A stretch of 64,000 nucleotides of DNA from positions 682,001 through 746,000 of the forward strand of contig NZ_JAMZFT010000001.1 of the NCBI RefSeq assembly GCF_024158125.1, read 5' to 3'. The position numbers and the translations under genes are program-made. The stretch's first letter is position 1. The number at the start of each line of letters is the position of its first letter. This stretch comes from Futiania mangrovi (GTDB taxonomy: Bacteria > Pseudomonadota > Alphaproteobacteria > Futianiales > Futianiaceae). The notes below the pieces were generated by a model. The model was not told where the DNA came from and made no database searches. It saw only the letters and a program-made list of their open reading frames with translations. Below are positions 48,030-62,962 of the stretch, one piece after another.

Positions 48030-49412
48030 TCAGTAGCAGCGGTCCGTCGGGGGCGCCTTCAGCAGGCCCCAGCCGTAGATGTCGTCGCGGCCCGGCTGGC
48101 CGAGGTCTTCCGCGCCGGTCGAGAGGATGAGGCGCGCCGCGGCCGCGTCGCCGCCGCTCAGCGCGCGTGCCCGCAGCAGGGCGGCGGCCGCGAAGGGGGC
48201 GGCAAAGCTCGTCCCCGTCCAGGCGGTGAAGCCCCCGCCGGGGGCTGCGGCGCGGATGCCGACCCCGGGTGCTGCCAGGTCGATATAGGCGCCGCGCGTG
48301 CCCTGCCGGTACGGTCGCTTTCGCGCGTCCACGGCGGCGACTGCCAGGACCTCGGGATAGGCCGCGGGATAGCTGGGCGTGCCGCGCGGCCCGGTGTTGC
48401 CTGCCGCCGCGACCAGGTTGATGCCGCGCGCCGCGACGGCCGCGATTGCGGCGCCGAGCACCTTGTTCTCCGCACCCGACAGGCTCATCAGCACGACGCG
48501 CGCGTCCCGTGTCGCGGCCCAGTCGAGCGCGCGGACGATGGCAATCGTGTCCGCCTGCTCCTGCCCGTCGCGGTTCCGGACCACTTCCGCCGCGAGCAGC
48601 GGCGCGCCGGGTGCCAGCGGTCCTGCCGAACCGACCAGCAGCGAGGCGATGGCCGTCGCATGTCCGCTCGGCGCAGAGCCCGCACCGCCTTCGACGAAGC
48701 TGCGCGTCTCGATCCGCGCACCCTCCAGCGTCGCGTGCCGCAGGTCGAGCGGCGTGTCCAGCAGCGCCACGGGGCGGCCGGGGGCGCAGGCCTGCGCATC
48801 GAGGCGCGACAGGCCGGTCATGGCCGCTTCGGCGCATTGGGCAGCGCCGCACGCCGCCGCGGCTTGCGGGGCATAGAGGTGGTTCGCGTCGAACACGCCC
48901 TCCGGCGCGAGGCTGCGGGCGAGGGAGAGCGCGGCCGGAACCTCGATGTTGCGCGGCGTCGCAAGCCGCACCAGCGTCATGCCAAGCACCTCGGAGCGCG
49001 ATGTCCCGCGCAGCGAGAACCCTTGTGCGGTCAGCGCATTCAGACCGCGCGCGTCGAGGTTCAGGCCGACGATTTCCCGCGACAGGTAGTCTTCCGCCGA
49101 GCCGCCCTCGGGGGTAGAGGCATCCTCGTCGTCGGAGCGGTCGTCGTCCTCATCCCGCGAATCGTCGTCGCTGTCGTCTCCATCGTCTCCATCGTCGCTG
49201 TCGTCTCCATCGTCGCCGTCGTCCCCGTCGTCCCCGGAATCGCCGTCGTCGCCGTCATCTCCTCCGCTGCTGTCGCCCCCATCGTCACCGCCGTCATCGC
49301 CGCCATCGCCGCCGCTGGCAAATGCAACCGTTCGGATGCCCCCGCCCGGGACGGCGTCCAGAAGGGGCAGCAGGGCATAGACCAATGCGGCGGCGAGCAG
49401 GAGAAGGCGCAT
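48030..49412 (-). CDS. Subtilase (S8 serine protease) with Asp/Gly-rich N-terminal region
   Basis: This is a 460-residue secreted S8 protease. The signal peptide (Leu-Leu-Leu-Leu-Ala-Ala) is followed by an extremely acidic Asp/Gly/Ser repeat region (34-98), then the catalytic domain: Asp219 (Leu-Leu-Asp-Thr), His251 (Ser-Gly-His-Ala), Asn339 (Ala-Gly-Asn-Thr-Gly) and Ser402 (Gly-Thr-Ser-Phe-Ala-Ala-Pro). All four key residues are present. The acidic repeats could bind calcium or serve as a flexible linker. It is divergent from an ECF sigma/anti-sigma pair, an arrangement seen in other bacteria, suggesting that the sigma factor controls it. The ATG at 49412 starts the signal peptide. Confidence 0.9.
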   Translation of the reverse strand: MRLLLLAAALVYALLPLLDAVPGGGIRTVAFASGGDGGDDGGDDGGDSSGGDDGDDGDSGDDGDDGDDGDDSDDGDDGDDSDDDSRDEDDDRSDDEDASTPEGGSAEDYLSREIVGLNLDARGLNALTAQGFSLRGTSRSEVLGMTLVRLATPRNIEVPAALSLARSLAPEGVFDANHLYAPQAAAACGAAQCAEAAMTGLSRLDAQACAPGRPVALLDTPLDLRHATLEGARIETRSFVEGGAGSAPSGHATAIASLLVGSAGPLAPGAPLLAAEVVRNRDGQEQADTIAIVRALDWAATRDARVVLMSLSGAENKVLGAAIAAVAARGINLVAAAGNTGPRGTPSYPAAYPEVLAVAAVDARKRPYRQGTRGAYIDLAAPGVGIRAAAPGGGFTAWTGTSFAAPFAAAALLRARALSGGDAAAARLILSTGAEDLGQPGRDDIYGWGLLKAPPTDRCY

Positions 49413-49539
49413 GCTGATAGGATCCGGATGAGCGGCTGTTCCGCATGACAACGCGAAACCGATAAAATTATTCCCAATGCCTGGAATAGGTCGGTCCGCA
49501 CCGCGTTGTGGGCTTGGAAAGTAGAGCGTACGGCACCCG

Positions 49540-50031
49540 ATGGAAACCGACATCCGGCACGAGATCGCAGCCCTCACACCCCGCCTGCGCAGGTTTGCCT
49601 ATGCGCTCGCGGGGTCCATCGACGAAGGAGACGACCTTGTGCAGAGCGCGTGCGTGAAGGCGCTGTCGGGTCTCGATCGCTTCCGGCCGGGCACAAGGCT
49701 CGACAGCTGGATGTACCGGATCGTCCAGACGCTCTGGATCGACCGGGCGCGAATGGCACGAAGGCGGGCGACGGCTCCCGACCCGGATGCCGTCGCCGCG
49801 GCCAGCGACGATGGGCTCGCTGCACGCAGGCCGGACGACCGCCTGACGCTCGCCCGCGTGCGCCAGGCGGTGCAGGACCTGCCGGAGGAGCAGCGTGCCG
49901 TGCTCGTCCTGGTGGCGATCGAGGGGCTGTCCTACCGGCAGGCTGCCGAGACGCTCGACATACCCATTGGCACGGTGATGAGCCGGCTTGCCCGCGCACG
50001 GGCCCGTCTCGCACCCATGATCGGGGATTGA
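49540..50031 (+). CDS. ECF-type RNA polymerase sigma factor
   Basis: This is a 163-residue sigma factor with region 2 (Ala-Glu/Asp-Asp-Leu-Val-Gln-like segment Gly-Asp-Asp-Leu-Val-Gln and Trp-Met-Tyr-Arg-Ile-Val) and region 4 (Leu-Pro-Glu-Glu-Gln-Arg, then Gly-Leu-Ser-Tyr-Arg-Gln-Ala-Ala-Glu-Thr-Leu and Gly-Thr-Val-Met-Ser-Arg-Leu). Regions 1 and 3 are absent, as in ECF factors. Its gene is followed 4 bp later by a membrane anti-sigma gene and lies opposite the subtilase, which it may transcribe. Confidence 0.92.
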   Translation: METDIRHEIAALTPRLRRFAYALAGSIDEGDDLVQSACVKALSGLDRFRPGTRLDSWMYRIVQTLWIDRARMARRRATAPDPDAVAAASDDGLAARRPDDRLTLARVRQAVQDLPEEQRAVLVLVAIEGLSYRQAAETLDIPIGTVMSRLARARARLAPMIGD

Positions 50032-50035
50032 ACCG

Positions 50036-50788
50036 ATGACGACCGAATGGACCGAGGATGAAATCGTGGCCTATGCCGATGGCTCGGCCGAGGGAGACGC
50101 GGCCCGGCGCGCGGCCCGTGCGGTGGAGACGGACCCGCGCGCCCGCGCCATCTTCCAGCGCGTTCGGGAGGCGAACGCGATCCTCCGCGCTGCCTTCGAC
50201 GCGCCCATGCAGGAGGCGACGCCCGCGCCCATCCTGGCCGCGATCCACGGCGAGCCCGGAAAGGTCGCCGCGCTTCACCGGCGCGCGCCGATGCGCCGCC
50301 TCGCGTCGCTCGCGATGGCGGCGAGCGTGGTGCTGGCCGTCGGTCTCGCCGTCTATCTGGAGCCGGGGCTGCTCGGCCAGGGCGGACGCGATGCCGCGCC
50401 TGCGCTTGCGCTCGGTCCCGTCGCGCAGGGCACGGCGCTCGCCACGGCGCTGGAGACGCGCGCGGCGGGCGCCCCGGAGGGCACGGTCACGGTGCTCGCA
50501 ACCTTCCGGACGGAAAATGGCCAGGTCTGCCGCGAGTTCGAGCACATGCCGCAGAACGACAGCATCGTGATCGGGGGGATTGCATGCCGCACGTCCGGCG
50601 GCTGGGCCGTCGAGGCGCTTGCCGGGATCGAGGGCGATGCGGCCGGCGCGGGCGGATACACGACCGCCAGCGGCGAGGACGACCCGCTGGCGGGCGTCCT
50701 GACACGTCTCGGGGCGGGTCCGGCGCTCCCTCCGGCAGAGGAGGGGCGCCTGCTGCAACGCGGCTGGCGGGAAGGGGCGGGGGGCTGA
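50036..50788 (+). CDS. Membrane-anchored anti-sigma factor
   Basis: This is a 250-residue protein. The N-terminal 80 residues (Asp-Glu-Ile-Val-Ala-Tyr-Ala-Asp-Gly and a helical region) match cytoplasmic anti-sigma domains that hold ECF factors. One membrane helix follows (about 88-108) and then a periplasmic part with two cysteines. It probably binds the sigma factor encoded 4 bp upstream until a surface signal releases it. It is convergent with the racemase-like gene, 5 bp apart. Confidence 0.85.
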   Translation: MTTEWTEDEIVAYADGSAEGDAARRAARAVETDPRARAIFQRVREANAILRAAFDAPMQEATPAPILAAIHGEPGKVAALHRRAPMRRLASLAMAASVVLAVGLAVYLEPGLLGQGGRDAAPALALGPVAQGTALATALETRAAGAPEGTVTVLATFRTENGQVCREFEHMPQNDSIVIGGIACRTSGGWAVEALAGIEGDAAGAGGYTTASGEDDPLAGVLTRLGAGPALPPAEEGRLLQRGWREGAGG

Positions 50789-50793
50789 TCCGC

Positions 50794-51543
50794 CTAGTGC
50801 TCTTCCAGGAGCCGCCCGCAACCGCCCTTGCGGTCCCCGATCCCCATGCTGCGCAGCGCATGCCAATAGGTCGCGGTGTTGATCGCGATCACCGGCTTGC
50901 CCAGCCGCGGTTCCAGTTGTGCCGCCACGCGCCCCATCGGCAGGTTTGCGCCGAACTGCACGATGGCGTCGACGTCGTCGCCGTCGAGCGCGGTGGCGGC
51001 GTCGAACAGCTCCTTCTCCGGCACGAAGGCAATCTCGACCGGTCCCTTGCATTCGAGGTGCCGGGAACGGACGAGGCTATAACCGATCGCCTCGATGAAT
51101 TCCTTCAGGTGCCCTTCCGCCACCGGATGGTAGGGGGTCAGCAGCGCGATGGACTTGCGCACGCCGAGCGCCTTGAGCGCCGCCGGCAGCGCGTCGGCGG
51201 CCTGCGTCACGCCGATGTCGCCGGCGCGCGCGCGGATACGTTCGGCGATCCGGCGTGCAGGCTCCAGCCCGCCGCCCCAGATGCTTTCCGCCGAGATGCC
51301 GAGGATCAGCCAGTCGGGCCGGCAGGTCATCACGCGGTCGAGCGATTCCTCCAGCGCGATGTCGATCCGGCGGATCAGCTCGTTGAAGTCGTTGTCGTTG
51401 TTCACCGGCTCGTCGGGGATGTGCATCCGCGAGATGTGGTTGGTCACGCCCGGAAAGCGCATGTCGTCGTATTCCGGTTGCACCACCGTGTTGGTGGACG
51501 GCGTCATGACGCCGAACTTGCAGCGGTATCCCAGCGTGTCCAT
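50794..51543 (-). CDS. Asp/Glu racemase/maleate isomerase-fold protein lacking both catalytic cysteines
   Basis: This is a 249-residue protein of the maleate cis-trans isomerase/arylmalonate decarboxylase superfamily. The substrate loop Thr-Pro-Ser-Thr-Asn-Thr (14-19) is intact. The first cysteine position reads Gly-Ile-Ser-Ala-Glu-Ser and the second reads Gln-Phe-Gly-Ala-Asn-Leu, so neither catalytic cysteine is present. It may bind a small dicarboxylate or use another acid/base pair. It is the last gene of the selenoprotein operon, after the SnoaL-like gene, and is probably part of the same pathway. Confidence 0.8.
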   Translation of the reverse strand: MDTLGYRCKFGVMTPSTNTVVQPEYDDMRFPGVTNHISRMHIPDEPVNNDNDFNELIRRIDIALEESLDRVMTCRPDWLILGISAESIWGGGLEPARRIAERIRARAGDIGVTQAADALPAALKALGVRKSIALLTPYHPVAEGHLKEFIEAIGYSLVRSRHLECKGPVEIAFVPEKELFDAATALDGDDVDAIVQFGANLPMGRVAAQLEPRLGKPVIAINTATYWHALRSMGIGDRKGGCGRLLEEH

Positions 51544-51585: not shown

Positions 51586-52158
51586 TCAGTCCGGAAACCC
51601 TGCCTCGCGGCGGTTGATGTAGACCGGGTCGCCCGCATCGCGGGTCCCCAGCACCCAGCCCGCGTGCCCCTCGACCGAGCCGTTGTTCGCCCGGGCGTGG
51701 GTCGAATCCACCGCGACCCGGCGCCGGGCGATCCGCCATTCCCCGTCCCGCTTCTCGAAGCGGTCGATGTAGCGGCCGAGCACGTCGACCCGGATGCGCC
51801 CCTGCGGCGCGCCCTCCTCGCCATCGCCCATCAGCATCTTTCGGTGGTCTTCCGATTCCGCGCCAAGCTCGAGCAGGACCAGCACATAGGTCTCCACCGC
51901 CGCGACCGTGTCGGAGGCGAACTCGATCAGGCTGCTGCCCAGCAGGTGCGACGACATGGGGATACCCGCGTGCCGGTCGCTGATCCACGCGATGAAGGCG
52001 TCGCGCGGCCCCTTGAAGTCGGTGTGGTCGTCCGTGCCGTCCTCGAAGAAGGTTGAGCGCGCCAGTTCCCAGTCGCGCCGGTCGACGCCGCGCGCATAGC
52101 GGGCGATGACGTTGCGGATGTCGCGTTCGTCCAGCAGCCGCTGCACAGGATCGCTCAT
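51586..52158 (-). CDS. SnoaL-like/NTF2-fold protein
   Basis: This is a 190-residue NTF2-like protein. Asp-Ile-Arg-Asn-Val-Ile-Ala-Arg-Tyr-Ala-Arg-Gly-Val-Asp-Arg-Arg-Asp matches the first helix of SnoaL-like small-molecule-binding domains. Members act as isomerases, dehydratases or binding proteins for small organic molecules. The gene lies between the UGSC-paralog gene and the racemase-like gene on the same strand, so an accessory catalytic step on the same compound is likely. The specific reaction is unknown. Confidence 0.82.
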   Translation of the reverse strand: MSDPVQRLLDERDIRNVIARYARGVDRRDWELARSTFFEDGTDDHTDFKGPRDAFIAWISDRHAGIPMSSHLLGSSLIEFASDTVAAVETYVLVLLELGAESEDHRKMLMGDGEEGAPQGRIRVDVLGRYIDRFEKRDGEWRIARRRVAVDSTHARANNGSVEGHAGWVLGTRDAGDPVYINRREAGFPD

Positions 52159-52223: not shown

Positions 52224-53417
52224 TCAGCCGCCACCCGGCAGGCGCACCTCGCGTGTGATCCGCGCAGGAGGCGACCCCCAGGACGGGCAATAGGCATGCT
52301 GCGGGATCGGCACGTCGCCCCCCGCCACAACGATCACGATGTCCTCCGGCGCCTTCGTTGGCGGGATCGCGCCTCGCGCCGCGCCTTCCAGCACCCAGTC
52401 CTTCCAGCGTCCTTCCGCGACGAGGGCGGACTTGAACCACGACCGCTCCCAGCTTTCCGCAGGCCAGCGGCCGTGCGTGTGCAGCCACGCGCGCACGTCG
52501 TCCTTGCTCATGCCCTTGGCGGCAAGCTCCGCCGCCGTCGCGGGGGCGAGGATCACCGTCGGGCGGCCGCTCCACATGATCTGGAAGGCGGAGGCCGCAG
52601 TGCCCATCACGGTCGCGATCTCCTCCAGCCCGCCGGTGACGTTGATGACGGTCTCGGCGCGGGTCAGCGTGACGGCGCTCGCCTCCGCGGGCAGGCCGGC
52701 TTCGGTATGGATCGCCGGCCAGGGCGACAGGGCTGCGTTCTCCGCGAGGCAGAGCGTGTAGCGCCCGGCCTGGCCGAGGCCCGCGAAGGAGACGAGGCCC
52801 GCGCGCCCGCCGCCGAGGTTCAGCATGACGAGGCGGAGCGCACGCCCGATGGTCGCATTGGCCGCCCAGCCGGGCCCCAGCGCGCCGAAGCTCGCATTGA
52901 GGCCGATCCGCTCCACGACCGGGCCTGAGACGATCAGCAGGGGCGCCACGTTCTCGTCCGTGGTCTGCACGCCATTGAGGTTGAACTCAGGGTCGAGCAG
53001 GGCGTCCACGGCGGCCAGCACGACCGGGAAATAGGCGGGCTTGCACCCGGCCATCACGGCGTTCGCGGCCACCTTCTCGACCGTTGCGAGACCCTTCAAC
53101 GGTTCGACCGCCCCCAGCACCTCGTTCGCGGACAGATGTCCCCCGGCGATCATCCGGCGCACGCGGACGGTCGTGGGCGCGACGATGGGCAGGCCGTCGG
53201 TCCAGCCGCGCCGCTCGAAGAGATCGCGCACGCGCGCCTCCGGGTCGCCGCCCGCCACTGCCTCGACGCGCTGGCGCGGGAAGTCGCCGGTCAGCGGCGC
53301 GGCCGCCATCATGCCGCGCTCCACCGCGCGCGCCTTCAGCGTGTCGTCGATCCAGCCGCCGGATGCCTGCTGCCCCGCGGGGATGACGACCCAGACCGGC
53401 GCGCCCGTCTCTCCCAT
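52224..53417 (-). CDS. Paralog of the C-terminal domain of the UGSC selenoprotein
   Basis: This is a 397-residue protein homologous to residues 200-573 of the selenoprotein encoded directly upstream. Shared features are Trp-Thr-Asp-Gly-Leu-Pro-Ile-Val (72-79), Met-Ala-Gly-Cys (122-125), a Leu-Ala-Glu-Asn-Glu/Ala segment, and Lys-Asp/Glu-Asp-Val-(Arg/Gln)-x-Trp-Leu near the C-terminal third. It has no Sec codon. The ATG at 53417 lies 13 bp after the selenoprotein stop and a purine-rich site precedes it. The two proteins probably form a heteromer or act in series. I know no assigned function for this domain. Confidence 0.85.
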   Translation of the reverse strand: MGETGAPVWVVIPAGQQASGGWIDDTLKARAVERGMMAAAPLTGDFPRQRVEAVAGGDPEARVRDLFERRGWTDGLPIVAPTTVRVRRMIAGGHLSANEVLGAVEPLKGLATVEKVAANAVMAGCKPAYFPVVLAAVDALLDPEFNLNGVQTTDENVAPLLIVSGPVVERIGLNASFGALGPGWAANATIGRALRLVMLNLGGGRAGLVSFAGLGQAGRYTLCLAENAALSPWPAIHTEAGLPAEASAVTLTRAETVINVTGGLEEIATVMGTAASAFQIMWSGRPTVILAPATAAELAAKGMSKDDVRAWLHTHGRWPAESWERSWFKSALVAEGRWKDWVLEGAARGAIPPTKAPEDIVIVVAGGDVPIPQHAYCPSWGSPPARITREVRLPGGG

Positions 53418-53430
53418 CCCTGCCAGGGCC

Positions 53431-55152
53431 TCAGCCCTGCTCCTCGAGCTTCGTCTCCCAGTCCTTCGGCAGGGCGACACGCTTGGTCACCGGGAAGCCC
53501 AGCATGCCGTTGTGCGTGAAGACGTAGCAGTTCGACCGCATCGGGTCGCCCGCGACCGCGATCATGAAATGCTCCGGCTTCGTCACGATGGGTACGAGGC
53601 GGTCCGGATCCTTACCCGCGAAGACCTTGGGCGCCTTGCCGAGCCGAACCTGGTCGTCGAGCGTCCGCTTGCCCGGCACCAGGTTGGTCCAGCGCCAGAT
53701 GTAGTCCTCGAACCGGTGGGCCGGGATGCGCGCGTGCTCGTAGAGCCAGTCCTGCACGTCCTCCTTGCTGAAGCCCGACTTGGCGATGGTCTCGGCGATC
53801 AGCGGCGAGAGCACGAGCAGGGGCCGGTAGGTGCCCTTTGCCATGCCGACCGTGAAGATCAGCTCCCATGTCGTATGCGTCGCCAGCGCATTGGCGAGAT
53901 AGGGCAGGCACTGTTCCGCCGTGGTGCCGAAGACCGACGCGATCACGTTCCCGCCCGTGTAGCGCGAGATGGTGACGGCGCTGTCCTCGCGCCCGACGCC
54001 CGCTTCCTCCGCGATGGACGGCCAGCCGATCTGGTGCAGCCGCGCCTCGTTCTCCGCCAGCACCACGCGCCAGGTGTTGCCGAACGTGCCCTTGTCGGTC
54101 TCGTGCAGCAGGAAGCCTGCGACGTTGCGGAGATAGAGCCGCCAGAACCGGCCGATGCTGGTGTTCGGCTGGAAGCCGTCGCGCAGCGCGCCCTGCTCGA
54201 AATTGAAGTCGAGCGTGCGGATCAGCGGACCGTTGAGGACGATCAGCGTCTCCGCACCCGGCGTGTTGCCCGAATGCTCGTTGCCATAGTCCGGATCGGC
54301 CATCGCCTCGGCAAGCGCGCAGAGGATCGGCATGTATTCCGGCCGGCAGCCCGCCATCACGCCGTTGACGGCGACGTTCCAGACGGTGGCAAGCCGGTTG
54401 TCCGGCAGCAGCCTTCCGAACACATGGTCCTTCGGCAGGTCGGTGAAGGCCAGGAACTCTGCGATCTTCCCGTGCGTCGGCGGCACGATGGGCAGCCCGT
54501 CGGACCAGCGGTTCTCGACGAACAGACGGTTCACGTCCTCGAAACTGCCAGAGAAGACGATCTCCTCAGGGTCGGGTTCTCGTGTTTCGACGACCTCCGC
54601 GACGGCGCCTGTCAGGCATTCCACGATCTGGTCGACCGTCACCTTGCGGATATTGGCCTGCAGCTCCTCCTCGGACTGCACGTCCACGTGGCCCGGCACC
54701 ATGGCGACGGGCAGGTTCGGGAACCCGAGGCCCACGGACGTCGTCCGGGCCTGGCCAATGAAACCTTCGCAGCAGAGAGCGACCGTGGGGACCCCGGCGG
54801 CTTCGGCAATCGCGCTCACCCGCAACACGGCGGGAGTGCACGAACCTCAGCAGCCCATCCCGGAGACGACCGCGTCGATCTTCAGCGACTTCAGCTTCTC
54901 CGGCAGCGCCGCGAGCACCTCGTGCTCCTCGTCGCCGTGGGTCGAGCCGAATTCCTCGTAGCCGACGAACTCCATGCCCGGGAAGCGCTTGCCCAGTTCT
55001 TCGGTGCAGACGTCCCAGATCTCGTCGCCGCGGAACAGATAATCCCACAGGAAGGCGACCTTCGCGCCTTCCATCGAAGCCAGCCGCGGCGCCAGCGGTT
55101 TCACGTCAACCGACTTGGCGCTGCGCGGCCAGACAACGTCATATGTCGTCAT
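53431..55152 (-). CDS. UGSC-motif selenoprotein (in-frame UGA read as selenocysteine)
   Basis: This is a 573-residue protein whose frame is interrupted only by TGA at 54849-54847, codon 102. Translation continues in the same frame as Sec-Gly-Ser-Cys-Thr-Pro, the U-G-S-C motif known from a predicted (seleno)protein family found in marine metagenomes. Residues 1-195 form the motif-bearing domain (Val-Ser-Gly-Met-Gly-Cys before Sec102; Cys-Cys-Glu at 127-129). Residues 200-573 form a second domain shared with the next gene (Trp-Ser-Asp-Gly-Leu-Pro-Ile-Val, 216-223; Met-Ala-Gly-Cys ending at 269). The sequence is conserved-looking on both sides of the UGA. A SECIS-like hairpin follows it, a GAGGGAGGGG site precedes the ATG, and tRNA-Sec, selB and selA are 4-8 kb away. 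A redox role is likely; the substrate is unknown. Confidence 0.93.
54815..54838 (-). promoter_or_regulatory. Candidate bacterial SECIS hairpin downstream of the UGA
   Basis: On the minus strand, a stem C-x-C-x-CCCGC / GCGGG-x-G-x-G (54838-54815) closes a 6-nt loop CGTGTT (54829-54824). The loop begins 18 nt after the UGA, inside the 16-37 nt window for bacterial SECIS elements, and has a G in its first two positions as SelB loops usually do. Two mismatches lie in the lower stem. Confidence 0.72.
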
Positions 55153-55374: not shown

Positions 55375-56295
55375 GTGTCCAACCGCTTCGACATTGCCGT
55401 CATCGGCGGCGGTATTGCCGGGCTGACAGCGGCGCATCACGCGGCGCTTGGCGGCGGTTCCGTCGTGCATGTGCGTGGGGAGGATTTCCCCGGCGGCCTC
55501 GTCAGCAATGTCGGGCGCATCGAAGGGTTTCCGTCCGGCGGGCGCGACGTGTCGGGCGCCGATCTGGCGCTGGGCATCGCGGAGGCGAACAAGGCGCTCG
55601 GCGTCGAGGAATTGGCCGAGAACGCCACGGCGGTCGCGAAGGCGGGTCGCGGCTTTTCGATCGAGACAGGGCAGGGGACGATCCGCGCCGGCCAGGTGAT
55701 CGCGGCGACGGGTGCGCGGCTGAAGACGCTCGACGTGCCGGGCGCCGCCGCGCTCGAAGGCAAGGGCGTGTCGCAATGCGCCTGGTGCGACGGGGCGCTG
55801 AACCGGGGCCGCGACGTGGTGGTCCTGGGGGCGGGCGATGCCGCGCTGGAGGCTGCGCTCTACCTCGCGCCGCTTGCGCGCAAGGTGACCGTCGTGACCC
55901 ATGGAGAGGGGGTACGCGGCCGGCAGGCCTATGTGACCCGTCTCGCCGACCATGAGAACGTGGATTTCCGCTGGGCCTGCGAGGTGACGGAGATCGTCGG
56001 CGGCAACGGTGTCGAGGCCGTCCGGCTCTCCGATACCGACACCGGCGAGACGGAGGACCTGCCCTGCTACGGTGTCTTCGTCTTCATCGGGCAGGTGCCC
56101 AATTCGGGCCTGTTCGCCGGGCTGGCGGAGTGCGATGGCGAGGGCCGGATCCTGACGGACACAAGCATGGAAACGGCCTGCGAGGGGCTGTTCGCCGCCG
56201 GCGCGGTGCGCGCGGGCTATGGCGGGCGGCTGGTGCATGCCGTGGGCGAGGCGGCAACCGCCGCGATGGCGGCGGCGGCGCGCTGCGACGATTGA
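55375..56295 (+). CDS. Thioredoxin-reductase-like FAD/NAD(P)H oxidoreductase
   Basis: This is a 306-residue two-domain flavoprotein of thioredoxin reductase type. FAD binding is at Gly-Gly-Gly-Ile-Ala-Gly (11-16), the redox pair is Cys135-Ala-Trp-Cys138, and NAD(P)H binding is at Gly-Ala-Gly-Asp-Ala-Ala (152-157). The short Cys-Ala-Trp-Cys loop instead of Cys-Ala-Thr-Cys suggests a special partner. It is divergent from the selenoprotein gene (222 bp) and shares a promoter element with selA, so it is the likely electron donor that reduces the Sec/Cys centre of the UGSC protein. It starts with GTG at 55375. Confidence 0.88.
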   Translation: MSNRFDIAVIGGGIAGLTAAHHAALGGGSVVHVRGEDFPGGLVSNVGRIEGFPSGGRDVSGADLALGIAEANKALGVEELAENATAVAKAGRGFSIETGQGTIRAGQVIAATGARLKTLDVPGAAALEGKGVSQCAWCDGALNRGRDVVVLGAGDAALEAALYLAPLARKVTVVTHGEGVRGRQAYVTRLADHENVDFRWACEVTEIVGGNGVEAVRLSDTDTGETEDLPCYGVFVFIGQVPNSGLFAGLAECDGEGRILTDTSMETACEGLFAAGAVRAGYGGRLVHAVGEAATAAMAAAARCDD

Positions 56296-56372: not shown

Positions 56373-57380
56373 ATGAACATGATGCCCAACTGGCGGCTCA
56401 CTGGGGCCGCTGTCGCACTTTCCGCGGCGCTCGCCGGGTCTGCTGCGGCGGAGACGACCTGGGACCTTTACGCCTTCACCGGCGTGACGCACCCGATCAC
56501 CGTGCGCTACCAGATGTTCGCCGACGAGGTGGCGCAGGCCACGAACGGCGAGTTGAAGATCATCGTGCGCCCGGCGGGCGAACTGCCGTTCAAGGCGACG
56601 GAAGTCGTCAAGGCGACGAGCAGCGGGCAGGTGCAGCTTGCCGCCGCCTATCAGGGCTTCATTTCCGGCGCCGTGCCGGTCGCGTCGATCACCAGCCTTC
56701 CGTTCCTCGTGCAGAACGCGGACCAGCTGGAGCAGATCGCGCCGAAGCTGATCGCCGCGGCTGACGCGGAATTCGGCAAGCAGGGTGTGCGGACGCTCTT
56801 CTGGCACACCTGGCCGGTGCAGAACATCTTCGGCCGGGGCGAGCCGATCCGCAGCCTGGCCGACTTCAAGGGCCGCAAGATCCGCTCCACGGACGGCAAG
56901 CAGGCGGAGATGCTGAAGCAGCTCGGCGCATCCTCGATCAGCCTGACGACGGCCGAGGTGCCGGTGGCGGTCGAGCGCGGCGTGGCCGACGGCTACATCA
57001 CGGCCGCCTTCAACGTGGTGGGCGCGAAGTGGCAGGAGTTCACCGACTGGGCATGGCTCTGCGAGGTGCACATCGGCGGCCCGTCCTACCTGCTGATGAA
57101 CATCGACGCCTACAACGCGCTGCCCGACGATGTGCGGGCGAAGCTCGACGAGGTCGCAAAGTCCTTCGGGCCGAAGTTCCGGGCGCTAAACCTCGCCGAC
57201 GAGAAGACGGCGCTGGAGTCGCTCGAGAAGGAGCACGGGGTGACCATGGTGAAGCCCAGCGACGCTGAGATCGCCGAGCTGATCGACCGCATGACGCCCT
57301 ATTGGGAGACCTGGGCCACCCAGAACGGTGACGCTGCGGTCAAGCTGCTGGCCGAGGTCCGTTCGGAACTCGGGAAATAG
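56373..57380 (+). CDS. dctP: TRAP transporter solute-binding protein (DctP family) of the UGSC locus
   Basis: This is a 335-residue DctP-type binding protein. The signal peptide ends at Ala-Ala-Ala-Glu near 27; Gly-Glu-Leu-Pro-Phe and Val-Pro-Val-Ala-Val-Glu-Arg-Gly-Val-Ala-Asp-Gly correspond to the ligand-binding core. GGAGG precedes the ATG at 56373. It follows the flavoprotein gene by 77 bp and leads dctQ and dctM. It probably captures the small acid used by the selenoprotein system. Confidence 0.92.
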   Translation: MNMMPNWRLTGAAVALSAALAGSAAAETTWDLYAFTGVTHPITVRYQMFADEVAQATNGELKIIVRPAGELPFKATEVVKATSSGQVQLAAAYQGFISGAVPVASITSLPFLVQNADQLEQIAPKLIAAADAEFGKQGVRTLFWHTWPVQNIFGRGEPIRSLADFKGRKIRSTDGKQAEMLKQLGASSISLTTAEVPVAVERGVADGYITAAFNVVGAKWQEFTDWAWLCEVHIGGPSYLLMNIDAYNALPDDVRAKLDEVAKSFGPKFRALNLADEKTALESLEKEHGVTMVKPSDAEIAELIDRMTPYWETWATQNGDAAVKLLAEVRSELGK

Positions 57381-57399
57381 GCACCGGCGCGCCAGGGCA

Positions 57400-57429
57400 G
57401 CCGCGCCCGCCCCCGCGGGCGGGCGCGGC
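57400..57429 (+). terminator. Attenuating hairpin between dctP and dctQ
   Basis: GCCGCGCCCGCCC (57400-57412) pairs with GGGCGGGCGCGGC (57417-57429): a perfect 13-bp stem with a 4-nt loop, 20 bp after the dctP stop and 36 bp before dctQ. It is the same arrangement as in the other TRAP operon (33098-33121). Confidence 0.65.
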
Positions 57430-57465
57430 CCCTGACGGCAGCGGTACGGATCCGGGAGGGGGGCT

Positions 57466-58005
57466 GTGCAGCACGGCAACCGCATGACGGACGATGCATC
57501 GGAACCGGGCGGCCCAAGGGGGACGGGGCGCCTGGCCCGTGCCGCGGCCGCGCTCTCCGATGTCTTCGGCGCGCTGGCCGGGGTCGCGCTTGCCGGCATC
57601 GTGGTCATCGTCTGCACCGAGATCGTGTTGCGCCTGTTCCGCCATTCGCTTCTCGTGACCGACGAGATGGGGGCCTATCTCAATGCGGCGGTGGTGTTTC
57701 TCGGGCTCGCATACAGCCTGCGCCACGGCGCGTTCATCCGCATGGAATTCGTCTACGACCGGCTGAGCCGCCCCGTCCGGCGGCTCGCGACATGGTGCTT
57801 CGTGCTGATCACGACGGTGTTCGTCGCCGCGCTCGTCTATGTCGCGTGGAAGCACGTGCAGTACGCCTATGTGCAGGATACCCGCGCGATCTCCGTGCTC
57901 GCGACGCCCGAATGGATCCCGCAATCCCTGATGCTGCTCGGCCTCGCGGCGCTTCTCGTGCAACTCGTCGCCTTCATCTGGGAGAGGGTGCGCCATGTCC
58001 CCTGA
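57466..58005 (+). CDS. dctQ: TRAP transporter small permease (DctQ)
   Basis: This is a 179-residue DctQ-type subunit with four membrane segments (about 38-60, 70-90, 108-130 and 145-170) and family-like Glu-Ile-Val-Leu-Arg-Leu-Phe and Thr-Asp-Glu-Met-Gly-Ala-Tyr. The GTG at 57466 follows a GGGAGGGGGG site; an ATG at 57484 is the alternative. It pairs with DctM, whose gene starts 39 bp later. Confidence 0.9.
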   Translation: MQHGNRMTDDASEPGGPRGTGRLARAAAALSDVFGALAGVALAGIVVIVCTEIVLRLFRHSLLVTDEMGAYLNAAVVFLGLAYSLRHGAFIRMEFVYDRLSRPVRRLATWCFVLITTVFVAALVYVAWKHVQYAYVQDTRAISVLATPEWIPQSLMLLGLAALLVQLVAFIWERVRHVP

Positions 58006-58044
58006 CAGCCCGCCGCCGTCCAGCACCCTGGCAGGGGGGCGCCG

Positions 58045-59379
58045 ATGAGCCTCGACCTGCTCGTCGCCGTGCTGATCGGCGGGCTCGCCTTCCTGCTGCT
58101 GATCGGCCAGTGGACGGCGTTCGCACTGGGCACCACGGGGGTGGTGATCCTCTACCTCAGCAAGGGCGTGATCGGCCTGGAGGCATTGAGCTCGGTCGTC
58201 TGGAACAACACCGCGAGCTACATCCTGGTGGCCGTGCCGCTGTTCCTGCTGATGGGCGACCTCATCCTGCGCAGCGGCGTCAGCGGCTATTTCTACCGAG
58301 GCGTCGTCGTTCTGCTGCGATGGCTGCCGGGCGGGCTGCTGCACGCCAACATCATGTCTTGCGCCATCTTCTCCGCCGTCTCGGGGTCGAGCGTTGCGAC
58401 CGCCGCGACGGTCGGAACCGTTGCCATCCCGGAGATGACGCGGCGCCAGTACGCCCCGCGCATGATCTTCGGCTCGCTGGCGGCTGGCGGTACGCTGGGC
58501 ATCCTGATCCCGCCCTCTATCGTGATGATCCTCTACGGCGCGCTGGTGGAGGAATCGATCGCCCAGCTGTTCATGGCGGGGCTCATCCCCGGGCTAACGC
58601 TCGCCGGCATCTTCATGGCCTATATCGCCGTGCGCATCGCACTCAATCCGGCGCTCGCGCCCGAGGGCAAGGCACGCGAGGACATCGGGCAGGAGGAGGC
58701 GGAGGAGGCGGGGGAGGAGCCCGGCTGGCGCGACGCGCTGCACGTGCTGCCGATCTTCGCCCTGCTGGCGGTCGTGCTGGGCAGCATCTACGCCGGCATC
58801 GCCACCCCGACCGAGGCGGGCGGGATCGGCGTCGCGGGCGCGCTTCTTCTCGCGGCGGGCTATCGCGGACTGAACTGGGAGGTGTTGCGCGGCTCCCTCA
58901 TGTCGGCGGTGCGCACCACCTGCATGGTGGTGTTCATCATCGTAGGCGCGCAGATCCTCGCGACCGCGCTGACCTATTCGGGGGCGAGCAGGGCGATCAG
59001 CGAGTGGGTGCTCGCGCTCGGCCTGTCGAAGTGGATGTTCTTCGCGATGCTGGTCCTGCTTTACGTGGGGCTGGGGTTCTTCGTGGACGGGCTGTCCATG
59101 ATCTACATGACCCTGCCGGTGCTTCTGCCCCTGGTGCGCACCTTCGGCTTCGACCTCGTGTGGTTCGGCGTCGTGCTGACCATCCTGATCGAGCTTGGCC
59201 AGATCACGCCGCCGGTCGGATTGAACCTGTTCACGATCCACGGGATATCGGGGGGAAGCCGGTTCTCCGAGGTGGTGCGGGGCGCGGCGCCCTATGTGGC
59301 GCTGATGCTGGCGATGATCCTTCTGCTCGTGCTGTTTCCCGGCCTCGCGCTGTGGCTGCCGGCGACGATGATGAACTAG
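58045..59379 (+). CDS. dctM: TRAP transporter large permease (DctM)
   Basis: This is a 444-residue DctM permease with about 12-13 membrane segments. Family marks include Ser-Gly-Ser-Ser-Val-Ala-Thr-Ala-Ala, Ile-Pro-Pro-Ser-Ile-Val-Met-Ile-Leu-Tyr-Gly and Thr-Pro-Thr-Glu-Ala-Gly-Gly-Ile-Gly. It completes the importer of the selenoprotein locus. It ends 15 bp before the 3' end of tRNA-Sec, which is on the opposite strand. It is driven by a Na+ gradient in known systems. Confidence 0.95.
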   Translation: MSLDLLVAVLIGGLAFLLLIGQWTAFALGTTGVVILYLSKGVIGLEALSSVVWNNTASYILVAVPLFLLMGDLILRSGVSGYFYRGVVVLLRWLPGGLLHANIMSCAIFSAVSGSSVATAATVGTVAIPEMTRRQYAPRMIFGSLAAGGTLGILIPPSIVMILYGALVEESIAQLFMAGLIPGLTLAGIFMAYIAVRIALNPALAPEGKAREDIGQEEAEEAGEEPGWRDALHVLPIFALLAVVLGSIYAGIATPTEAGGIGVAGALLLAAGYRGLNWEVLRGSLMSAVRTTCMVVFIIVGAQILATALTYSGASRAISEWVLALGLSKWMFFAMLVLLYVGLGFFVDGLSMIYMTLPVLLPLVRTFGFDLVWFGVVLTILIELGQITPPVGLNLFTIHGISGGSRFSEVVRGAAPYVALMLAMILLLVLFPGLALWLPATMMN

Positions 59380-59394: not shown

Positions 59395-59490
59395 TGGCGG
59401 AAGAGGGTGGGAGTCGAACCCACCAGACGCGGCTTGCGCGCCTCAACGGGTTTGAAGCCCGTGCGGACCACCGGGATCCGATCCTCTTCC
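59395..59490 (-). tRNA. selC: Selenocysteine tRNA (anticodon UCA)
   Basis: This is a 96-nt tRNA with encoded CCA. The 8-bp acceptor stem is GGAAGAGG (59490-59483) with CCTCTTCC (59406-59399), then G and CCA (59397-59395). The anticodon loop CTTCAAA with anticodon TCA lies at 59455-59453, on a 5-bp ACGGG/CCCGT stem. A long variable arm follows, and the T-arm has GGTTCGACTCC. The 8-bp acceptor and long extra arm are the hallmarks of bacterial tRNA-Sec. The 5' half overlaps the end of the selB reading frame. Confidence 0.97.
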
Positions 59491-61452
59491 TGAAAGCGTG
59501 TGTGTCTGCATGGCGGCGCGCGTGCCCGTGCCGTCCCCGGTCCCGAACACGGTGCCGGCGGGCCGGACGGTCTTGCGCGTGCCGCCGTCGCGGCGGGTGA
59601 AGCCCAGCCGGTCGAAATATTCCAGCATCTCGATCGTCAGGTTGCGGCCGAGGCCCGACCGGTCGCGGAACTCCGCGGCGGTGAAGCCCTCGTCCGCCGC
59701 TTGCCGCGTCCCGTCCTCCGCAAGGTCCGCGAGGCGCCGCAGCGTCGCTTGCGTCAGGTAGCGGTTGGGGGTCACGCGGGTCGCCTCTCCCAACATGGCG
59801 GCGCGGGCCAGCAGTGCCTCCGCCCGGTCCTGTGCAATGTCGAGCGCGGCCGCAAGTTCGGAGATCACGGGCGGGCGTCCCGGCGCCTCCAGCAGCGGCT
59901 TCGCGCGGGCCCAGAGCGCGCCATCCTCGGCGTTCAGGCGCGGCGCGTGGCTCGCAAGCCGCAGGAAGGGGCCGGCGCGCACGGCCTCGCCCGCTGCCAC
60001 GAGGCCGGAGACGGCGGCGTCGAGCGCTGCGGGCAGGCAGGGCCGGGGCAGCATCCGTGCCAGCGCGGTGCGGTCGGGGCCCGCCCGTTCCGGCTGGCTG
60101 CGGTGATGATGGGCAAGGGCGTCCAGGATGGCGCACCTCAGGGCTTCGGCATGGCCGCGCGTCAGGCCTGCGTCCCCGTCCGCCCCGGAGGCGACCACGG
60201 GCACGCGCGCGCGCATCGCCTCTGCCTCGGCCGGATCCAGGTTCCAGGCGGTGTCGAGCGCACCCAGCGGCACACCGCCCGGCATCCCTTCCAGCAGTGA
60301 CTGCAAAGCCGCCGCTCGGCCGCGGCCGCGCAGTGCGGCCAGCCACGCGAGCCGTGCCGGTGCGCCGCGTCCACGCTGCACGCCTTGCGGGTCGACGATA
60401 CGGCCGCCGCCCAACGTCTCACGTGCTGACTGGTTGCGCAGGATCACGGCGTCGCCTGCCGCCGCGACGGCCGGGCGCGAGAGGACGATCTGCGCGAGGG
60501 CGCTTTCCCCAGGTGCAAGCGTTGCGCGGTCCAGCAGGAACAGCCTCCCGGGGATATCCGCGCTGCCCAGGTGCACATGAACCGGCGTGTCCCGCTTCAG
60601 CGGGCGATCGTGCGTGGCGAGCAGGCGGACATCGACGTCGAGGCGCGCCGACGCAGGCGCCACGCGCGGCGCCACCAGCCAGTCGCCGCGGTGAATGTCG
60701 GCCTTCTCCACCCGGCCCGCCAGGTTGATCGCGCAGCGGTCGCCGGCGCGGGCCACCTCCGCCTGGCGGTTCTGCACCCTCAGCCCGCGGATCCGTACGT
60801 CGCGGCCGCTGGGCTCCAGCCGCAGCGTTTCGCCTTGCCCTGCGCGGCCCGACTGGACGAGGCCGGTGACCACCAGCCCCGTGCCGTCGACATGGAAGGC
60901 GCGGTCTATCGCAAGACGGAAGTTTCCACGCGGGTCGGGCGCGGGGGCGCTTTCGGCGAGCGCGCGCAGGCGTGCGGCAAGTTCGGCTACTCCCTCGCCG
61001 GTCGTGCTGGAGACGGGCAGCACGGGGGCATCCGCCAGGCCCGTCCCCTCCAGCAGGCGCGCGACCTCCCCGCGGGCCGCGTCGAGGCGGGCGGGGCTCA
61101 CGCGGTCGGCCTTGGTCAGCGCCACCAGCCCTTCGCGCACCCCGACGAGGTCGAGCACGGCGAGGTGCTCCAGCGTCTGCGGCATCGGACCGTCGTCCGC
61201 CGCGATCACCAGCAGCGCCGCCCGTATCCCCGTCACCCCCGCCAGCATGTTGCGGACGAAGCGGCTGTGGCCCGGCACGTCGACGAAGCCGATGGTATGG
61301 CCCGGCGCGATCTGCGTGTCGTAGACGAAGCCCAGGTCGATGGTCAGGCCGCGCGCCTTCTCTTCCGGCAGGCGGTCTGCGTCCTGCCTGGTCAGCGCGC
61401 GCAGAAGGCTCGTCTTGCCGTGGTCGACATGGCCCGCCGTGGCGATGATCAT
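59443..61452 (-). CDS. selB: Selenocysteine-specific elongation factor SelB
   Basis: This is a 669-residue protein. The N-terminal GTPase has Gly-His-Val-Asp-His-Gly-Lys-Thr (7-14), Asp-Val-Pro-Gly-His (switch 2) and Thr-Lys-Ala-Asp. EF-Tu-like domains 2 and 3 follow, then winged-helix repeats at the C-terminus that bind SECIS RNA. It delivers Sec-tRNA-Sec to in-frame UGA codons. The ATG at 61452 overlaps the selA stop (ATGA 61449-61452). Oddly, the frame runs 15 codons into tRNA-Sec and stops at a TGA within the tRNA (59445-59443); the usual family end is about 30 residues earlier. Confidence 0.95.
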
Positions 61453-62885
61453 GGCGCCCCGTCCGAAAGGTCGAGCGCGCCGAGTTGCCCGACGAACGCT
61501 GCCTCGTCCTCCAGGCAGCGCAGGTCGAACAGCAGCGCACCGCCCGCGATGCGTCCGATCACTGGGCGCGGCAGGCGGCGGAACGCGCGCGCCAGCGCCT
61601 CCACCTTGCCGCCCGCCTTCCGCCCCCCGTGCGGGGTGAGCGCGAGCGCCCGGCTCGGCAGAAGGTCCACAGGCAGGGCGCCGCTGCCGATCTGGCTCCG
61701 GCACGCCACGATCTCCACGTCCGCGGCCCCGTCGACTGCGGTGCGCACCGGCCCCGCGAGACGCTCGGCCCGCCCGGCGATCTCCGCTTCCGGAACGGTC
61801 AGCATCCGCAGCACGGGCAGCCGCGCGGCCAGGCGTTCGGGGCTCTCGTAGAGGCGCAAAGTCGCCGACAGCCCGGCGAGAATGATCTTGTCGAGGCGCA
61901 GCGCGCGCTTCATCGGGTTGCGGCGGATGCGGTCCACGAGATCCGCACGACCGGCGACGATCCCGGCTTGCGGGCCGCCTAGCAGCTTGTCGCCGCTGAA
62001 GGTGACGAGGTCCATGCCGGCAGCCAGCGACTCGCCGGGCGTAGGCTCGTGCGGCAGGCCGTAGCGTTCGAGATCGACGAGCGTGCCGCTCCCCAGGTCG
62101 CAGACGGCGGGAAGCCCGGCCTCATGGGCGATCCGGGCGACGTCGGCTTCGCTCACGGCGGCGGTGAAGCCGGTGACGGCGTAATTGCTGGCATGCACCT
62201 TCATCAGCAGTGCCGTTTCGTCCCCGATCGCGCCGGCATAGTCGCGCGGGTGCGTGCGGTTCGTGGTGCCGACCTCCCGCAGCCGGGCGCCGGCGCGCGC
62301 CATCACGTCGGGGATGCGGAACGCGCCGCCGATCTCGACAAGCTCGCCGCGGGAGACGATCACCTCCCGGTCCTGCGCCAGCGTGTTGAGCACGAGCAGC
62401 ACGGCGGCTGCATTGTTGTTGACGAGGGTCGCGGCTTCTGCCCCGGTCAGGCGGCAGACCTGTGCCTCGACACGCGCGTCCCGGTCCCCGCGGCGTCCGG
62501 TCTCGAGGTCGTATTCGAGGTCCGATGGCTCGGCCGCCGCCGCTGCGATCTCGCGGATCGCTTCCTCCGCCAGCGGCGCCCGGCCGAGGTTGGTGTGGAT
62601 CACGGTGCCGGTGAGGTTGAAGACGCTGCGGACCGCCGGTGCGAGCCGCTCCGCGATCCGCGTCCCTGCCATGCCGGCAAGCGCCTGCGGGTCGGAAAAC
62701 GTCTCCGCGTCCGCTCCGCCCGCGATCCGCGCTCGAGCTTCGGCGAGCACGTCGCGGACGGCATCGCGCACCGCTGTCGCGCCGTGCGCAAGGACGAGCG
62801 GTTCGAACGGCGCGCTCTTCAGCAGGGCGTCGATGGATGGCAGCAGATCGTAACGCGGGCGCGCATGTGTCCTGGCGGCATCCAT
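61449..62885 (-). CDS. selA: L-seryl-tRNA(Sec) selenium transferase SelA
   Basis: This is a 478-residue PLP enzyme. The Lys300 in [12 protein letters not shown] is the PLP lysine. Thr-Val-Ile-His-Thr-Asn-Leu-Gly-Arg and Val-Asn-Asn-Asn-Ala-Ala-Ala are typical SelA segments. It converts Ser-tRNA-Sec to Sec-tRNA-Sec using selenophosphate. It is the first gene of selA-selB-tRNA-Sec. A promoter with the 12-bp motif shared with the flavoprotein gene precedes it. No selD for selenophosphate supply is visible in the window. Confidence 0.96.
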
Positions 62886-62928
62886 GTTCCGGCACGTGTT
62901 CCGATGGCGGGTTGGCAGCTTCCGGTCA

Positions 62929-62962
62929 GCCTAGGACCCGCGCCAACTCATTGTCAATCAAG
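62929..62962 (-). promoter_or_regulatory. selA promoter with the shared CTTGATTGACAA element
   Basis: On the minus strand CTTGATTGACAA (62962-62951) includes the -35 TTGACA; 17 bp later is CTAGGC (62934-62929). An upstream AT-rich stretch (GCAATAAAT) resembles the GCAACAAAAAT upstream of the flavoprotein promoter at 55256. Confidence 0.65.

Follow-up and report, generated by a model that had tools for sequence, protein, structure and literature searches.

What does a protein domain without a name do when it is encoded twice in succession, once fused to a selenocysteine (Sec)-containing UGSC domain and once on its own? This question is raised by a 64,000-nucleotide stretch of DNA from Futiania mangrovi, referred to here as the window. 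We use the working name DOM for the unnamed domain, which makes up the C-terminal part of the fusion protein and is also found in the product of the next gene. The finding turned out to be larger than the initial annotation of this locus had proposed, since it concerns a widespread and unnamed partner domain of an orphan selenoprotein.

A fused and a standalone copy of one domain

The gene pair consists of the following features.

53431..55152, minus strand: Sec-UGSC-DOM fusion selenoprotein, an open reading frame with an in-frame TGA (573 amino acids with UGA read as Sec)
54613..55137, minus strand: UGSC domain with the motif C-U-G-S-C (Pfam and our own HMM)
53473..54609, minus strand: DOM copy 1, fused to UGSC (our own HMM; BLASTP to copy 2, E = 2e-41)
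52224..53417, minus strand: standalone DOM protein of 397 amino acids, with ATG 53417 as its likely start and without a Pfam or NCBIfam match

The fusion reading frame begins at ATG 55152 and ends with the stop codon at 53431-53433, with the TGA at 54847-54849 read as Sec. The interval originally assigned to the pair, 52224-54540, left out the UGSC domain of the fusion, which reaches 55152. The two genes lie in tandem on the minus strand, ATG 53417 being 13 nt past the fusion stop, and in four relatives the best candidate start of the standalone gene overlaps the fusion stop by 4 nt. Residues of the standalone DOM are counted here from GTG 53480, with ATG 53417 as the likelier start.

A BLASTP alignment of the fused and standalone DOMs, taking in fusion residues 207-543, contains 118 identities in 349 positions (34%; 141 bits, E = 2e-41) and brings the motifs W(S/T)DGLPIV and MAGC into register. 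In the fusion, these are W216-SDGLPIV-223 (54484-54507) and MAGC269 (Cys codon 54346-54348); in the standalone protein, they are W93-TDGLPIV-100 (53181-53204) and MAGC146 (Cys codon 53043-53045). The alignment thereby confirms the initial annotation, which had placed both motifs at corresponding positions in the two proteins. Given the E value and the motifs in register, the fused and standalone DOMs are homologues and not a chance resemblance, and at the level of sequence they are paralogues. Orthologues of the standalone DOM carry an additional N-terminal stretch, LWxVxPxGQxAxGxWIDDTL...FPRQRVEVVRG, which was unseen in the other DOMs that we read. The extra N-terminal stretch of the protein encoded at 52224-53417 is modeled with low confidence.

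The AlphaFold models have a mean pLDDT of 84.6 (standalone DOM) and 82.3 (fusion), and the order of helices and strands is the same in both DOMs. Such a comparison of the two domains had been suggested at the outset, and unrelated folds did not occur. Profile searches of DOM against Pfam and NCBIfam gave no match, and the claim that the two proteins share an unnamed domain is borne out; the domain recurs with the Sec domain among bacteria and in a single haloarchaeon. Likewise, searches of the PDB with the DOM model using Foldseek and VIA-align returned no convincing match. At the top of the Foldseek list stand fumarate hydratase and Toblerone-fold hydrolases, with TM scores below 0.3. Fumarate hydratase was rejected as the fold of DOM (best E = 3.4e-3 but TM approximately 0.25, which is too weak), as were the PDB relatives proposed by VIA-align (best Z = 4.6 over 81 residues, also too weak) and the hydrolase 3cmn, which had an E value of 1.7 and did not recur.

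Among 162 DOM sequences, the most conserved polar residues are Glu247 (162), Asp95 (161), Arg213 (161) and Asn221 (159), followed by the MAGC Cys (156), Asn208 (155) and Asn140 (154). Six of the 162 copies carry Ala or Gly at the position of the MAGC Cys, and four of the six have an intact Sec-UGSC next to them; these natural variants rule out that the MAGC Cys is indispensable. Cys244 occurs in 126 of the 162, the fused copy having Val at this position. As judged by conservation, Asp95, Arg213, Glu247 and Asn221 would be equally good candidates for active-site residues as the MAGC Cys.

The UGSC domain, its kinship and its selenocysteine

The Pfam profile PF24696 (UGSC) covers residues 5-181 of the fusion protein (E = 1.3e-30; 107 bits against a cut-off of 25), and the match passes the gathering cut-off and spans profile positions 1-171 of 172. 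The window UGSC scores 54.5 to 57.4 bits against NF041046, the UGSC_fam equivalog, whose cut-off is 125. It lies inside PF24696, with Sec in U-G-S-C, but outside the NF041046 equivalog. While the reviews consulted list UGSC on its own, it is fused to DOM here. A fusion of a UGSC selenoprotein to a domain called "Unknown_1" was reported in 2008 by Zhang and Gladyshev (PMC2398784), who noted Unknown_1 in a few aquatic organisms as well and assigned to UGSC, by inference, a redox function and a Trx-like fold. Unknown_1 is probably DOM. Apart from this fusion, the partner domain turned up in none of the papers that could be searched, and the accessible part of PMC2398784 contains no mention of a second DOM gene, thioredoxin-like fusions, a thioredoxin reductase (TrxR)-like partner or a wide co-occurrence. 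To the 2008 fusion, the present analysis adds the wide partnership, the pairing of DOMs, the thioredoxin-like fusions, the TrxR-like neighbour and a conserved SECIS-like hairpin.

Our model of UGSC (residues 26-189) aligns to Rossmann/flavodoxin-like alpha/beta folds with Z scores of up to 10.7 (127 residues, 3.4 Å), and no thioredoxin is among the matches listed. On these matches, the fold would differ from the Trx-like one put forward in 2008. With respect to known enzymes, 13 of 27 diverse UGSC domains match TIGR01917 (glycine reductase selenoprotein B; best E = 4.6e-6) and eight of the 27 match PrdB, with others matching GrdF and GrdH. The window UGSC itself stays below the cut-offs of TIGR01917, TIGR01918 and TIGR04483 (best E = 9e-4; 18.8 bits against 300). 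When UGSC is aligned to PrdB-like profiles with hhalign, U-G-S-C falls on U-P-V-C, with the Sec residues and the Cys residues of the two motifs paired; the probability of this alignment is only 32%, which is low because the PrdB-like profile consists of two rows from relatives. These profile matches make UGSC a distant relative of the Sec domains in GrdB and PrdB. Several relatives also encode PrdB-like selenoproteins (V-x-U-P-V-C-H-Q with an in-frame TGA; L157:1420-2325 and L168) that have no UGSC motif.

The window also contains the elements expected for Sec insertion, as listed below, and SelD is encoded in the genome.

54847..54849, minus strand: in-frame TGA, selenocysteine at residue 102 (open reading frame; relatives alike)
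54819..54834, minus strand: SECIS-like hairpin CCCGC-CGTGTT-GCGGG, with its loop 17 nt after the TGA
59399..59490, minus strand: tRNA-Sec (Rfam RF01852, 76.8 bits; ARAGORN)
59446..61704, minus strand: SelB, exact ends uncertain (Pfam GTP_EFTU, SelB beta-barrel and SelB-wing domains)
61455..62930, minus strand: SelA, start uncertain (PF03841, E = 1.6e-158)

Exactly one in-frame TGA is present in 69 of the 70 UGSC matches from genomes of the class. The hairpin codons CCC GCC GTG YTG CGG are unchanged at all 15 loci of the window type. The Leu codon in the hairpin loop is TTG at 11 of these 15 loci, against a TTG share of 10.9% among the Leu codons of the genes concerned, an excess with a binomial chance of 2e-8 if relatedness is ignored. 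A clear Cys version of UGSC occurs at three loci (L059, L111 and L133). The second of these belongs to the cultured haloarchaeon Natrialba asiatica DSM 12278, in which a Cys-UGSC with the motif CGSC (L111:5713-6360) is followed directly by a DOM, the pair spanning L111:5713-7406.

Gene partnership, architectures and neighbours

A protein search with the standalone copy as the query found DOM in 27 of 289 genomes of the class, and the UGSC model found UGSC in exactly the same 27, such that no genome has only one of the two. DOM adjoins or is fused to 67 of the 70 UGSC copies in these genomes. The exceptions were followed up: two of the three lie near contig ends, and the third belongs to genome G064, which has both UGSC and DOM but on different contigs. 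Conversely, 153 of 165 DOM copies at 121 loci have a UGSC within 2 kb on the same strand. These 121 loci were collected via DOM, so they show only that DOM keeps company with UGSC; the reverse comes from the class survey. A scan of a named genome collection yielded at least 580 confirmed relatives, and represented among the best 80 are Alpha-, Beta-, Gamma- and Deltaproteobacteria, Chloroflexota including SAR202, Rokubacteria, Binatia, Desulfovibrio and the haloarchaeon Natrialba asiatica. As far as gene content can tell, DOM is a near-obligate partner of the UGSC selenoprotein (PF24696).

Four architectures were observed. The window and 14 other loci have a Sec-UGSC-DOM fusion followed by a standalone DOM, and elsewhere UGSC and DOM are separate adjoining genes. 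In a large subgroup of DOMs, the domain is preceded by an N-terminal, thioredoxin-like domain with a C-x-x-C motif, whose similarity to thioredoxin is under the Pfam cut-off, and a Sec-UGSC gene usually lies just downstream. Finally, at seven loci (L042, L049, L052, L064, L067, L068 and L069), one UGSC gene is accompanied by two adjacent DOM genes, c1 and c2. At a further locus, L048:7213-10545, DOM lies inside an open frame of 1111 codons, with thioredoxin-like similarity directly before it.

A tree of 75 DOMs resolves the fused, standalone, c1 and c2 copies as four separate supported clades, with the fused and standalone clades also holding a few extra single rows. Since the tree puts the two DOMs of the window in different well-supported clades, they are old paralogues. 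Thus, the tandem duplication described in the initial annotation is correct as an arrangement, and a recent duplication event is ruled out. The fused lineage also occurs without a standalone neighbour (L071, L089, L101, L102 and L142), and in genome G194 the fusion and the standalone DOM are on different contigs. Constant adjacency of the two genes, a check proposed at the outset, holds at 15 loci and fails in these genomes. One UGSC with two different DOMs in two separate forms favours a heteromer, and the retention of the pair at 15 loci, together with the 4-nt overlap of stop and start in four relatives, makes one reasonable. The fusion and the standalone DOM would accordingly be favoured, from gene arrangement, as subunits of a heteromer; of the heteromeric pair proposed earlier, the genes being kept together is what stands, and assembly is a reasonable prediction.

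The genes that flank the pair are as follows.

55375..56295, plus strand: thioredoxin-reductase-like FAD protein with CAWC as its CxxC (TIGR01292, E = 3.7e-69)
56373..59379, plus strand: TRAP transporter DctP-DctQ-DctM (Pfam)
51586..52158, minus strand: SnoaL-like protein (PF13577, E = 1.8e-25)
50794..51543, minus strand: EutA/arylmalonate decarboxylase-like protein (PF17645, E = 2.8e-12)

The TrxR-like protein scores 232.8 bits against TIGR01292, below the equivalog cut-off of 343, and has FAD/NAD(P)-binding domains (PF07992, E = 2.3e-37) together with the redox CxxC, both cysteines of which are invariant in 10 of 10 aligned sequences. Its gene is transcribed divergently from the fusion and DOM genes in the window and recurs at 11 of the 14 other window-type loci, mostly directly after the standalone DOM. 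No TrxR-like gene was detected at the remaining three (L036, L080 and L082), in one case because the contig ends. The TRAP transporter is found at only three of the 14 other window-type loci and was rejected as a core part of the system. The EutA/arylmalonate decarboxylase-like gene is found at two; both it and the transporter recur in the nearest relatives only. Further along the window, a subtilase-family protein with a Gly/Asp-rich N-terminal stretch is encoded at 48030-50788, with an ECF sigma factor and a putative anti-sigma protein encoded beside it.

In the family at large, the neighbours that recur often include TctC receptors (49 loci), luciferase-like flavoenzymes (24) and family III CoA-transferases (22), counts that are approximate because they derive from BLAST clusters of uncurated open reading frames. 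Enoyl-CoA hydratases and MmgE/PrpD proteins are also common near DOM and UGSC. The Natrialba asiatica pair lies among genes for acyl-CoA dehydrogenase, CoA-transferase and lyase-like proteins, mostly read by eye. These CoA-ester, transporter and organic-acid neighbours fit a role in the catabolism of organic acids.

A possible reductase and its rivals

The substrate and chemistry that we infer for UGSC-DOM are those of a Sec-dependent, dithiol-fed, multi-subunit reductase of a small organic acid, resembling protein B of the GrdB/PrdB type. This reading is the best supported of those considered, and we hold it tentatively, with a probability of about 0.42. It draws on the co-occurrence of UGSC and DOM, the retention of Sec and the kinship to GrdB and PrdB; on a redox supply in the form of the TrxR-like gene, present at 12 of 15 window-type loci, and the thioredoxin-like C-x-x-C fusions; and on the catabolic neighbours and the twofold occurrence of one UGSC with two DOMs. 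Counted against it are the dissimilarity of DOM to GrdE and PrdA, the lack of a GrdA or GrdE match in this genome (searched without a positive control), the weak link of the window UGSC to GrdB and PrdB, the low hhalign probability, the sub-cut-off similarity to thioredoxin, the rarely kept TRAP transporter and the three loci without a TrxR-like gene.

In such an enzyme, the UGSC-DOM polypeptide and a second, divergent DOM polypeptide would form a heteromer in which DOM holds and polarises the substrate through its Asp, Arg, Glu and Cys residues. The Sec of UGSC, placed as in GrdB and PrdB, would attack or reduce the substrate and be left in a selenenyl-sulfide bond to the second Cys of U-G-S-C or, conceivably, to the Cys of DOM. 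The enzyme would then be reset by electrons that NAD(P)H supplies via the TrxR-like protein; where DOM carries a fused thioredoxin-like domain, as in other lineages, that domain may serve as the electron relay. Substrate specificity could come from different DOM paralogues located by different transporters and CoA-ester enzymes, comparable to the grdB/grdE sets. An extended form of this proposal, which strikes us as doubtful, is that DOM is a new fold and that with UGSC it constitutes widespread, unrecognised Sec-dependent reductases, distinct from glycine and D-proline reductases, that may break C-X bonds in organic acids; an expansion into many paralogues with substrates of their own among soil and marine bacteria, and a Cys version in a haloarchaeon, would belong to the same doubtful picture.

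Several other readings would account for part of these observations. DOM might be a lyase, hydratase or isomerase that uses acid-base catalysis by Asp95, Arg213 and Glu247, with UGSC serving to keep the DOM Cys reduced. These three are the best conserved residues in DOM (Glu247 in all 162 sequences, the other two in 161), CoA-ester and organic-acid enzymes are neighbours, and the faint Foldseek list (TM <0.3) is led by fumarate hydratase and Toblerone-fold hydrolases. However, a costly Sec at almost every UGSC locus is hard to explain for a helper protein, UGSC is akin to catalytic Sec domains, and the DOM Cys has been lost in some copies while Sec-UGSC remains; we consider this explanation unlikely. 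Less probable still is that UGSC and DOM form a thiol oxidoreductase that detoxifies peroxides, disulfides or electrophiles, the kind of function that was initially proposed for Sec families generally. The UxxC motif, the thioredoxin-like fusions, the TrxR-like neighbour and the redox function and Trx-like fold ascribed to UGSC in PMC2398784 are all compatible with it, yet among the chains compared the UGSC model best fits Rossmann/flavodoxin-like folds (Z up to 10.7), and many paralogues per genome are situated by different transporters and catabolic genes.

The initial annotation had also proposed that the MAGC Cys may belong to a second redox or metal site, a role that stays hypothetical. 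A metal site formed by this Cys, with or without Sec, seems very improbable: the conservation of the MAGC Cys (156 of 162) and of Cys244 (126 of 162) speaks for it, but these are single cysteines, the conserved columns of DOM contain no CxxC or His cluster, the MAGC Cys is missing from six copies, and Val takes the place of Cys244 in the fused one.

The near-obligate, unnamed partner, the probable source of electrons and the distant link to GrdB and PrdB make an enzyme open to testing out of what was an orphan selenoprotein. The catabolic gene clusters at DOM/UGSC loci indicate where to seek its substrate, and the Cys versions, such as that of the cultured Natrialba asiatica, could be expressed without selenium machinery and thus provide a selenium-free model.

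The glycine and D-proline reductases combine a Sec subunit with a substrate-binding partner and a dithiol supply (PMC10298544), and bacteria hold several substrate-specific sets of such reductases, one of which is reported to act on fluoroacetate (PMC10838667). In this genome, a search carried out without a positive control did not find GrdA, GrdE or PF09338. The profile for the pyruvoyl proprotein of the GrdE/PrdA type, PF09338, matched none of 19 DOM sequences, and DOM was rejected as a GrdE/PrdA homologue for lack of a profile match. At profile level, DOM shows no kinship to GrdE or PrdA. UGSC-DOM resembles GrdB/GrdE and PrdB/PrdA in having a related Sec domain, a putative substrate-binding partner, a probable feed of electrons from thioredoxin or dithiols and numerous paralogues that may differ in substrate.
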